Source: Lysobacter capsici (GTDB lineage Bacteria; Pseudomonadota; Gammaproteobacteria; Xanthomonadales; Xanthomonadaceae). From it: a stretch of 64,000 bases of DNA. Both the position numbers and the translations under genes were made by a program. The notes beneath the pieces were generated by a model, which saw only the letters and a program-made list of their open reading frames with translations, was not told the origin of the DNA and did no database searches. Below, piece by piece: positions 43,678-46,349 of this stretch (positions are counted from its first letter, which is position 1; every line of letters begins with the position of its first letter). Location: assembly GCF_014779555.2 (NCBI RefSeq), contig NZ_CP094357.1:3534001-3598000 (forward strand), in the 5' to 3' direction.

Positions 43678-45459
43678 ATGAACAGAGCAGTGCTTTTGAT
43701 CGGCGTAAGCCAGGCCGGCGGCTTGGGCAAGCTCAAGGCGGTCGAGCCGTCGATCGACAAGATGGCGGCCTGGGCCAAAAGCCAGGGCATTCCCGACGAT
43801 CAGATAATCCGCCGCACCGACGCCGGCGGCCTCAAAGTGACCGTCGCGGACTTGTTCAACGACATCAAGGCGCTGGCCGATCGCGACACGATCGAGCAGT
43901 TGATCGTGTATTTCTCCGGCCACGGCGTGGTCAACAACCGGCAGGAATACTGGCTGCTGTCGGACGCGCCGGTGAATGCGGCGGCCGCGGTCAATATCGA
44001 AGGCAATGTCTCGCTGGCGCGCGCCGGGGCGTTCGAGCATGTGGTGTTCCTGTCCGACGCCTGCAGGACGCCGACCCAGGGCGTGCAGTACGGCCGCATC
44101 ATCGGCAGCGACATCTTCCCCAACATCGAAGACGCCGAGCTGGAGCGCTCGGTCGATATCTTTTTCGCCACCTCGCTGGGCGCGCCCGCGCTGGAGGTGC
44201 GGCAATCCGAACAGGGCCAGCAATATCAGGCGATCTTCACCGAAGCCCTGCTCGACGCCTTGAACGGCAGGATTCCCGAGGCCATCCGCGACGGCCGGGT
44301 GCGGCCGCGCCCGCTCAAGAAAGCGCTGCCGAAAAAAGTCTGGGACAAGTTGAAGGCCAGCGGCCTGTCGCTGTCGACCTCGCAGACGCCCGACGCGCGC
44401 ATCACCTCCGAAGACGAGGCCTGGCTGGCCAGCCTGCCGCCGTCGGTGCCCGCCACCGCGACGCCGCCGGATATCGACGTGACCAGCGCGACGCCGCCGG
44501 ATTCGGCCGCGCCGTTGTCGACCCGCGAAGTCGCGCAACTGGTCGTGGAAGAAGCGCTGCGCAACGAAAGCTACGGCCGCGCCGCGACCACGCCGGTCGA
44601 GGTCAAGACCCTGACCGGCCGCGGCGTGTCCAAGAACGCCACCGCGATGCTCAAGAGCATGGCCCGCGTCGTCGGCAACCGGCTGCCGCAGCCGCTGCCG
44701 GAAAAACCCGGCTTCGAGATCCACGGCCGCGGCGTGACCGGCGTGACCTGCACCGACGGCGCCGCCCATCTGGGCCAGCAAGGCGATGCCGTCACCGTCA
44801 GCGTGGACACCGACGAACGCCAGAGCCAGGCGCTGATCGAATTCGACGACGGCAGCGGCGTGTTGCTGCCGGTGATCGCCGGTTTCGTCGGCGTGCTGCG
44901 CCTGCACGAACGCGGCCTGGACGAAGTCTGGTACGAACCGGCCGACGAATTCGACGCCTCGCTGAGCCGCGAGGAACTCGACTATCTGCGTCAGGCGGTG
45001 ATCAAGGCCTCCTCGCTCGGCGTATTCGCGCTGGAATCCGACGATGCCGATGCGCTCGCGGTGCGCATGCAGAACCTGAAGTTCCAGGACCCCGCTCTGG
45101 CCGTGTATGCCGCTTACGCCTATCACGACATCGGCCAGCTGAGCCGCATCGCGCAGATGCAGGGCTACCTGCAAGATCGCCTGCACGTGCGCTTGTACGA
45201 CCTCGCCCTGCTCTCGCGCGGCCTGCTCAAGGACGCCGATCTCGCCGCGGCCGTGGTGCCCGCGTTGCCGATGCTGTCGCAAGGCTGGGCCCTGACCGGC
45301 GCGCTGAGCGGACGCATTCCCACCGAACTCGACGGTCTGCGCCAGCAACTGCGGCCGTCGTTGTGGTCGCTGTACACCCCCGAAGGCGTCCAGGCCATCC
45401 GCGCATGGATGCGCCACGCCGCCGAAACATCCTCTTCCCTCACCCTGGGAGCTGCGTAA
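43678..45459 (+). CDS. Caspase family (C14-like) peptidase
   Basis: This 593-residue protein starts at ATG 43678. Residues 1 to about 230 form a caspase-hemoglobinase-fold domain. The dyad is His82 in VYFSGHGV and Cys129 in FLSDACRTP. A Pro/Ser/Thr-rich linker (about 252-280) is followed by a larger, unassigned C-terminal half with a strand-rich part (about 340-420) and a helical end. The layout, protease plus long sensor-like tail, is common in bacterial caspases that act in toxin or abortive-infection circuits. Its stop codon overlaps the next start (TAATG), so the two proteins are very likely made together. Trigger and substrate are unknown. Confidence 0.88.
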   Translation: MNRAVLLIGVSQAGGLGKLKAVEPSIDKMAAWAKSQGIPDDQIIRRTDAGGLKVTVADLFNDIKALADRDTIEQLIVYFSGHGVVNNRQEYWLLSDAPVNAAAAVNIEGNVSLARAGAFEHVVFLSDACRTPTQGVQYGRIIGSDIFPNIEDAELERSVDIFFATSLGAPALEVRQSEQGQQYQAIFTEALLDALNGRIPEAIRDGRVRPRPLKKALPKKVWDKLKASGLSLSTSQTPDARITSEDEAWLASLPPSVPATATPPDIDVTSATPPDSAAPLSTREVAQLVVEEALRNESYGRAATTPVEVKTLTGRGVSKNATAMLKSMARVVGNRLPQPLPEKPGFEIHGRGVTGVTCTDGAAHLGQQGDAVTVSVDTDERQSQALIEFDDGSGVLLPVIAGFVGVLRLHERGLDEVWYEPADEFDASLSREELDYLRQAVIKASSLGVFALESDDADALAVRMQNLKFQDPALAVYAAYAYHDIGQLSRIAQMQGYLQDRLHVRLYDLALLSRGLLKDADLAAAVVPALPMLSQGWALTGALSGRIPTELDGLRQQLRPSLWSLYTPEGVQAIRAWMRHAAETSSSLTLGAA

Positions 45460-46349
45460 TGAAGCAACTGGTGTTCATTCACGGACGATCGCAAGCCGGC
45501 AAGGACGCGGTGACGCTGAAAGCGACCTGGATCGATGCGTGGAAAAAGGGCCTGGCCAAGAGCGGCCTGGAACTGCCGATCCCGGAAGAGCGCATCCGCT
45601 TTCCGTATTACGGCGACACGCTGCAGCAGATGGTCGACGGCGCCAGCGCCGAAGAGGCGGCCAAGATCATCGTCAGGGGCGCGCAGGACGACACCGCCGC
45701 GCAGGCCTTTTTGTCGGCGATGCTGCAGGAGTACATCGACGCGGCCAATATCAGCGACGAAGAGATCGAACAGGAACTCGACCCCGCCGACGCCGCGGTG
45801 ATCGAACGCGGACCGCAGAACTGGCGCTGGGTGCAGGCGGTGCTGCGCGCGATCGACAAGCACACCGACGGCGGCAGCGCGATGATCGCCCTGCTGACCA
45901 ACGACGTGCATCAGTACCTGAGCAAGGCGAACCTGCGCGCGCATATCGAAGACGGCGTACTGCAGGCCATGGACCTGGCGCGGGAAAACGTCGTGGTCGC
46001 CCACTCGCTGGGCACCGTGGTCGGTTACACCCTGCTGCGCCGGCTGGAGAAGGAAGGCCAGGCCTGGCGCGTGCCGCTGCTGGTCACGCTCGGTTCGCCG
46101 CTGGGCATCCGCGCCCTGCGCGGCAAGCTGCGCCCGATCGGCCATCCGGCCAGCGTGACCGCCTGGTTCAACGCCTACGATCCCAACGACGTGGTCTCGC
46201 TCAATCCGCTGGACAAGGACAACTTCGCGATCACCCCGGCGATCGAGAACAAGGGCGACGTCGACAACTGGACCGATAACCAGCACGGCATCATCGGTTA
46301 TCTGGACGACAAGGTCGTGGCGAAACGGATCTACGACGCGCTGGTCTGA
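45459..46349 (+). CDS. Alpha/beta hydrolase coupled to the caspase gene
   Basis: This 296-residue cytoplasmic protein shares the A of the TAATG junction with the caspase gene. It begins with the hydrolase HGRS oxyanion-type segment (KQLVFIHGRSQAGKD), has an acidic insertion of about 100 residues, and then the elbow VVAHSLGTVVG with nucleophile Ser183. Asp244 (NAYDPNDVVSL) and His276 (NQHGIIGYL) complete a lipase-like triad. No signal peptide or transmembrane segment is present. It may be a lipase or esterase effector activated by, or a substrate of, the caspase; this is inference from the operon. Confidence 0.85.
   Translation: MKQLVFIHGRSQAGKDAVTLKATWIDAWKKGLAKSGLELPIPEERIRFPYYGDTLQQMVDGASAEEAAKIIVRGAQDDTAAQAFLSAMLQEYIDAANISDEEIEQELDPADAAVIERGPQNWRWVQAVLRAIDKHTDGGSAMIALLTNDVHQYLSKANLRAHIEDGVLQAMDLARENVVVAHSLGTVVGYTLLRRLEKEGQAWRVPLLVTLGSPLGIRALRGKLRPIGHPASVTAWFNAYDPNDVVSLNPLDKDNFAITPAIENKGDVDNWTDNQHGIIGYLDDKVVAKRIYDALV

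Follow-up and report, generated by a model that had tools for sequence, protein, structure and literature searches.

A caspase-like protease and a lipase-like hydrolase encoded by overlapping genes in Lysobacter capsici, with two candidate cut sites around an acidic lid

The DNA described here is a stretch of 64,000 nucleotides from the genome of Lysobacter capsici (assembly GCF_014779555.2, contig NZ_CP094357.1, positions 3,534,001 to 3,598,000; hereafter the window), in which two overlapping genes encode a caspase-like protease of the C14 type and a lipase-like alpha/beta hydrolase. Such two-gene units occur in scattered bacteria and in a few viral contigs, and the pair is very likely a conserved module. 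At the level of sequence the two genes are paired and their active sites intact, an acidic lid on the hydrolase is bracketed by two basic-Gly dipeptides, and these dipeptides change in coordination with a residue of the putative S1 pocket of the protease. On these grounds we consider it highly probable that the caspase has its partner hydrolase as substrate and cuts it at both hinges of the lid; the pair is perhaps a self-sacrifice switch against phage. The genome which carries it is a single contig of 6.24 Mb, and the closest named relative met was Lysobacter sp. Root690 (Lysobacteraceae), the hydrolase of which is 95% identical. The features are listed below in window coordinates; A3 is an alignment of 81 hydrolases, A4 an alignment of 69 caspases, and the pair set consists of 84 caspase/hydrolase pairs.

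43678..45459, forward strand: caspase-like (C14) protease gene, 593 amino acids (aa), ATG at 43678 and TAA at 45457-45459; PF00656 above cut-off, AlphaFold2 (AF2) model, MALT1/metacaspase folds
43921..43923, forward strand: codon of the catalytic His82, invariant in 69/69 (A4) and in 84/84 pairs
44056..44064, forward strand: codons of Asp127-Ala128-Cys129, the catalytic Cys with the putative S1-pocket Asp two residues ahead of it; 69/69 (A4), Asp and Cys in 84/84 pairs
44194..44196, forward strand: codon of Glu173, aligned with the P1-Arg anchor of the MALT1 E500 type; Glu in 73/84 pairs
45457..45461, forward strand: TAATG stop/start overlap of the caspase and hydrolase frames, junction GCGTAATGAAG, from frame reading; overlap is also common in homologous pairs
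45459..46349, forward strand: alpha/beta hydrolase (lipase-like) gene, 296 aa, ATG at 45459 and TGA at 46349
45675..45680, forward strand: candidate cut site 1, Arg73-Gly74; RG or KG in 74/81 (A3)
45681..45806, forward strand: acidic variable lid, residues 75-116, 42 aa, net charge -12 in the Lysobacter protein
45807..45812, forward strand: candidate cut site 2, Arg117-Gly118; RG or KG in 76/81 (A3), co-varying with site 1
46005..46007, forward strand: codon of the nucleophile Ser183 (HSLG), invariant in 81/81 (A3)
46188..46190, forward strand: codon of Asp244, invariant in 81/81 (A3)
46284..46286, forward strand: codon of His276, invariant in 81/81 (A3)

When a profile of the hydrolase alone (A1) was scanned against the genome contigs of 84,980 species, 89 relatives were found, and the top 80 were retained. 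In 71 of these 80 loci the gene immediately upstream, in the same orientation, encodes a full member of the caspase family, a figure which describes the subfamily and not alpha/beta hydrolases as a whole, the scan having preferred near relatives by design. In 50 of the 71 pairs the genes overlap (36 by 4 bases, 10 by 1), in 7 they are separated by 0-30 bases and in 13 by 31-286, and in L062 caspase and hydrolase are fused into one reading frame. The nine other loci include two which begin at a contig end (L058 and L078), one in which the hydrolase stands alone (L086) and six (L069, L082, L122, L123, L127 and L128) which adjoin a CHAT protease, as identified with Pfam. Among the 198 genomes of the family the same five have strong matches to the caspase (E ≤2.6e-49) and to the hydrolase (E ≤6.2e-87). 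Five of the 398 genomes of the phylum have a strong hydrolase match, and the caspase is present in all five; one of these, G440 (L200), carries a decaying pair with one stop in each gene. A further genome of the phylum set, G411, has a partial caspase with an internal stop, without a strong hydrolase. Clustering of 986 neighbour proteins revealed no conserved third gene; the top clusters (11, 8, 8 and 7 loci) are housekeeping-like by eye. The adjacency and the two active sites persist from phylum to phylum, so that the pairing is far beyond chance. A preliminary description of the locus, made from the sequence alone, had proposed that homologues be examined for adjacency and for retention of the catalytic residues; besides the adjacency just given, the residues are kept in all 84 pairs, and the overlapping stop and start which it reported were verified as TAATG.

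The caspase exceeds the cut-off of PF00656 (peptidase C14; 27 bits against 21.4) and has an intact His82/Cys129 dyad, and 67 of the 69 relatives in A4 match the same family at E ≤0.01. It is the only C14 match found in its own genome. Its AF2 model (mean predicted local distance difference test, pLDDT, 87.6) contains a catalytic domain at about residues 1-250, a linker, a beta-rich part and a helical C-terminus. The C-terminal half, formerly described as large and uncharacterised, is indeed large; it is folded in the model, with strands at 345-421 and helices at 428-587. The closest folds in the PDB are MALT1 (E 4.6e-11) and plant metacaspases, and a profile search for solved relatives also returned metacaspases; single-sequence searches gave no solved relative of either protein at E ≤1. 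In a library of viral structures the model matched caspases of giant viruses, with no match to the C-terminal half. According to the excerpted text of PMC4626109 (all papers given here by PMC number are cited from excerpts), MALT1 holds the P1 arginine of its substrate with D365, D462 and E500, and A498 lies at the P1 backbone. Asp127 and Ala171-x-Glu173 fit the anchors D462 and A498-x-E500, a numbering which derives from motif and alignment, not from superposition. We infer from these residues a caspase of the basic-P1 (paracaspase/metacaspase) type.

The pair set was compiled without L052 and L124 (caspase cut at a contig end), the fused L062, and L228, L229 and L233 (caspase within a larger protein, or none recognised). 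Genomes of the family and phylum met by genome search only (G123, G514, G588 and others) and the decaying G440 were likewise left out.

In the hydrolase Ser183, Asp244 and His276 follow the Ser-acid-His order of the alpha/beta hydrolase fold, so that the triad proposed earlier holds throughout A3; Asp241, an alternative triad acid, is kept in 80/81. None of the families in Pfam, PADLOC or NCBIfam matches the protein above its cut-off (Abhydrolase_6, 13.1 bits against 26.3). Its AF2 model, made from 81 sequences, has a pLDDT of 87.3 and a predicted TM-score of 0.87, and Foldseek relates it to an Archaeoglobus fulgidus lipase (E 1.6e-4) and to the DDHD domain of Nir2 (E 1.2e-3). At E ≤0.1 the 81 hydrolases match PGAP1 (66/81), Lipase_3 (29/81) and LCAT (25/81), and the profile search for solved relatives gave weak lipase matches only. 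Alpha/beta hydrolases of systems of this kind are taken to act on membrane lipids (PMC8195603), and the likeliest substrate here is a lipid ester.

The lid region lies between the oxyanion-side HG motif and the nucleophile, where the model has helices between residues 52 and 170. An acidic insertion of 100 residues had been reported at this place. The region is helical in the model, and its variable acidic core comprises just the 42 residues from 75 to 116. The lid is net negative in 81/81 hydrolases (mean charge -6.8), with a mean pairwise identity of 24% as against 48% for the rest of the protein. Residues 73-75 are the only run of three or more with a pLDDT below 50, and site 1 sits in variable flanks; the block 111-120 around site 2 has a mean pLDDT of 69. 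Because a conserved dipeptide occupies the least ordered loop of the hydrolase, residues 73-74 look as a cut site would, and the lid looks like a gate because it is variable, acidic and bracketed by the two sites.

In 75 of the 81 hydrolases both sites have a basic residue before Gly (P1), and where one site of such a row has Arg or Lys the other tends to have the same (43, 13, 7 and 12; Fisher p 0.004, uncorrected for kinship). Four rows have a non-basic residue at both: L072 and L121 (Met/Met), L080 (Gln/Gln) and L117 (Met and Gln). L127 and L128, whose partner is a CHAT and not a C14 protease, have Ser/Arg, site 1 aligning as Ser with an Arg one residue earlier. A hydrolase column was counted as conserved when its residue class was kept by no less than 85% of the basic-site pairs, which gave 108 columns. 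All four Met/Gln lineages depart from the norm at just two of these, 73 and 117, and three of the four at a single further column.

The protease changes with them. Both sites are basic in 71 of the 73 pairs with Glu173 and in none of the 11 without it, in three alignment modes; neither site is basic in 9/11 of the latter (one mode) or 8/11 (two modes). These 11 have Gln (L072, L080, L232), Met (L047, L220, L221, L222, L224, L231), His (L223) or a gap (L241) at position 173. With kinship ignored, the association over the 84 pairs has a p of 4e-12 (Fisher's exact test). On a tree of the quick kind, built without the site columns, the residue class changes five times at site 1, six times at site 2 and three times at Glu173. 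When five independent pairs of rows differing at site 1 are compared, site 2 differs in the same direction in 4.8 on average and never in the opposite one; site 1 follows in all three independent pairs which differ at Glu173. Length-weighted coincidence on branches gives a p of about 1e-4 for the two sites (four shared branches) and about 2.6e-4 for site 1 and Glu173 (three). Of 12 hydrolases with no protease noticed alongside (sites and neighbours judged by eye), only L086, which groups with caspase-linked Cellulomonas rows, has both basic-Gly sites; L194 and L205 have one RG each, also by eye. The CHAT-linked hydrolases keep basic residues at both places by eye. The pair of basic-Gly sites is absent, again by eye, from the trypsin-linked L048, L190, L191 and L206, the subtilase-fused hydrolases and the VMAP-linked L229.

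Several observations bear on the mobility of the pair and on the question of defence. The whole stretch is present in three of 20 genomes of the genus (G000, G090 and G590). In G598 and G157, which have no pair, the two flanking genes are 93 and 89 bases apart, and this junction looks like an empty site. Transfer judged from base composition was rejected; the G+C content of the pair (about 0.66-0.68) is like that of its surroundings. Pairs are also found on plasmids of rhizobia, Agrobacterium and Hymenobacter. A scan of IMG/VR revealed seven relatives of the hydrolase, four of them beside a caspase-like gene: in L231 (1-7319) the pair lies between the tape measure and tail tube genes on the opposite strand, in L230 the genes after it are HsdR, HsdM and HsdS of a type I restriction-modification system, L233 has a caspase-WD40 partner with a major capsid gene nearby, and the fourth is L232. 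A PADLOC scan (E ≤1e-15) covered 100 of the 259 genes within 2.5 kb of pairs and, as a control, 100 of the 166 genes at least 6.5 kb away. The near genes matched 12 families with member counts which sum to 15, the distant ones 64 families with one member each among the 25 listed. Enrichment next to known defence genes, which the preliminary description had suggested looking for, was thus not found with PADLOC, and the idea of defence-island enrichment was rejected. Its proposal of a defence or death circuit retains the context of single relatives (phage tail genes, type I restriction-modification, VMAP, STAND).

We propose that one gene encodes a protease and the other a pro-enzyme dedicated to it. 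The caspase would stay inactive as long as its C-terminal half has not sensed a trigger, which is probably phage infection. Once active it would cut the hydrolase after Arg73 and after Arg117 and so free the acidic helical lid, whereupon the serine hydrolase (Ser183/Asp244/His276) would attack an ester, most likely of a membrane lipid, and the infected cell would stop or die. Taken as a whole we lean towards this mechanism. Its parts differ in strength: the earlier suggestion that the caspase gates a cytoplasmic hydrolase which is its substrate is well supported by the pairing and by the coupling of sites and pocket, activation by cutting is probable, and for membrane damage in phage defence the chances appear equal either way.

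A number of points weigh against this reading. Within the coupling, the gap of L241 at position 173 was counted as non-Glu, four of the 11 non-Glu rows are near-identical copies from Agrobacterium plasmids (94-97% alike), L117 and L121 keep Glu173 despite their Met/Gln sites, L223 (Met/Arg) and L232 (aligned Glu/Lys) are misfits, and site 2 of L224 is Met-Gly or Lys-Gly depending on the aligner. The quick tree carries a warning that long branches meet. Sign tests have a median p of 0.0625 for site 1 and site 2 and of 0.25 for Glu173 and site 1, and cannot reach 0.05 because there are so few independent changes. A conserved PxNWxWVQ stretch follows site 2, Foldseek returned only weak matches for the hydrolase (TM ≤0.49), and none of the 50,697 phage records of INPHARED matches the caspase. 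Lastly, PADLOC matches are not richer near pairs than at least 6.5 kb away, although this control, being drawn from the same loci, is a weak one.

The structural-looking stretch after site 2 would also suit an arrangement in which Arg73 and Arg117 are not cut at all and serve as docking or structural residues, binding the caspase or each other in a stable complex. A structural role is conceivable since Met and Gln, the residues which replace the basic ones, are shaped like Lys and Arg. Site 1, however, sits amid variable flanks in the sole segment with a pLDDT below 50, and the S1-pocket residue changes along with the sites, so that we regard such a complex as quite unlikely. The evidence for cut sites is silent on the sign of the effect; the caspase might cut there in order to switch off a constitutive hydrolase or to shorten its life. 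The variable acidic lid between the two sites looks like a gate, and the canu nuclease is activated by the cutting of two insertions (PMC12799240), and an off-switch is therefore rather improbable. Thioesterases among the weak fold matches would be compatible with a hydrolase which, instead of being the effector, produces or destroys what triggers the caspase; with the coupling of the sites pointing from protease to hydrolase, this seems very improbable. The pair may on the other hand be a general stress, developmental or lysis switch. The recurrent neighbours of chromosomal copies look ordinary (by eye, with nine window neighbours scanned), and the missing PADLOC enrichment and the INPHARED result are in keeping with this. 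The patchy presence in the genus, the flanking genes about 90 bp apart in two genomes which have no pair, the copies on plasmids and viral contigs, and the relatives with VMAP and STAND proteins make a role other than an anti-phage one unlikely.

With respect to known systems, the pair belongs with the protease-gated effectors and with the caspase/hydrolase pairing recorded in 2020. In the VMAP (MoxR-vWA) ternary conflict systems of Kaur et al. (PMC7159879) a caspase domain and a neighbouring alpha/beta hydrolase gene are said to operate together, and in L229 a homologue of the hydrolase directly precedes a VMAP-M2 protein. The Lysobacter caspase, however, has no VMAP region (none at E ≤1), and no match to MoxR, vWA or VMAP was found in the ten scanned neighbours in the window (39877-56825; more distant genes lie outside the scan). 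No cut sites are named in the excerpts of that paper, and the hydrolase of L229 lacks the two sites by eye. In the canu system, described in 2025, a caspase activates an adjacent pro-nuclease by the cutting of two gating insertions, and other protease-activated enzymes are expected (PMC12799240). The likeness lies in a caspase beside a pro-enzyme whose predicted block consists of two insertions, with conserved Gly at the positions cut; the canu partner, by contrast, is a nuclease of the metallo-beta-lactamase fold accompanied by a CanB gene, and that of Lysobacter is an alpha/beta hydrolase in a two-gene unit. Behind the canu caspase lies an Ig-like domain; in the Lysobacter caspase a beta-rich part is modelled at 345-421. 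MALT1 and the metacaspases share the fold and the acidic S1 residues for a P1 Arg, but the Lysobacter protein has another C-terminal half and a dedicated adjacent partner. Similarity to the EACC1-associated caspase NF047832 extends over the catalytic domain (residues 4-202), at 38 bits against a cut-off of 140. The hydrolase has weak fold and profile similarity to those of the A. fulgidus lipase, DDHD and PGAP1 type, and reaches no Pfam cut-off. Filing the pair as a canu, VMAP or EACC1 system was rejected, each failing a tested feature (the partner nuclease; the VMAP domain and MoxR/vWA; the NF047832 cut-off).

The previous statement that no characterised system has exactly this pair is thus half right, the pairing being known from VMAP systems and a caspase with a pro-nuclease from canu. 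A search of the open-access literature, which leaves most subscription papers and preprints outside, found no paper that describes these cut sites or a caspase/lipase pair standing alone; the excerpts of PMC10907252 and PMC13092281 added nothing on such a pair. The Lysobacter type is set apart from the known pairings because it stands alone and has coevolving cut sites. What seems to be new is that the cut sites and the protease pocket change in step, gene pairs of this kind being already on record.

Were the proposal correct, a bacterial caspase would gain a defined natural substrate in which two cut sites are known exactly, together with a naturally occurring series of changes in specificity, and protease-gated immunity would extend from nucleases (canu, trypsin-nuclease pairs) to lipases. 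It would also supply a mechanism for the pairing of 2020, given without one in the excerpts on the large VMAP systems, and its claims are testable with two small proteins.

Relatives of the hydrolase were also met beside other proteases. In L122 (1379-4840), a metagenome-assembled genome of the Saprospiraceae, an LRR-Roc-COR-EAD11-CHAT protein is encoded directly upstream, and in Sinorhizobium fredii a CHAT gene lies beside a relative. L206 (5403-12000; G138, of the same genus) contains a remote relative, after which come a TPR-S-trypsin gene and two TIR genes, one of them with WD40 repeats; it is a trypsin version of the protease/hydrolase theme in this genus. The hydrolase overlaps or adjoins a TPR-S-trypsin gene in L190 and L191, the former then having a TIR gene, and on a Streptomyces plasmid a relative is fused to Trypsin_2. 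In Xanthomonadaceae (L020-L044) proteins of about 745-975 residues consist of a remote hydrolase fused to a C-terminal subtilase, with GHGTH and GTSMA in 23/25; one of them, L024 (67-2535), was scanned with Pfam and is Peptidase_S8. In L228 (6001-11366, a Streptomyces plasmid) the hydrolase overlaps a STAND-WD40 gene of 1500 residues with a sub-threshold C14 match, and a type I-E CRISPR gene lies alongside. This recurrent coupling of one hydrolase lineage to unrelated proteases is notable in itself. A broader reading, for and against which we are evenly divided, would be that of a widespread, portable caspase/pro-lipase death switch: both lid hinges would be cut, the P1 specificity (Arg/Lys or Met/Gln) would have been rewired several times in step with both sites, and the lineage, repeatedly coupled to C14, CHAT and TPR-S trypsin partners and to trypsin and subtilisin fusions, would be the lipase counterpart of nuclease-protease pairs.

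Two minor features of the surroundings may be added. At 46812-46934 of the window there is a stretch of about 100 bases, resembling repeats of the repetitive extragenic palindromic type, with many copies on both strands of this and related genomes. About 2.8 kb downstream of the pair (49155-51266) lies a gene for a NERD and UvrD-like helicase protein; in L227, too, a NERD gene comes after the pair, possibly by chance.

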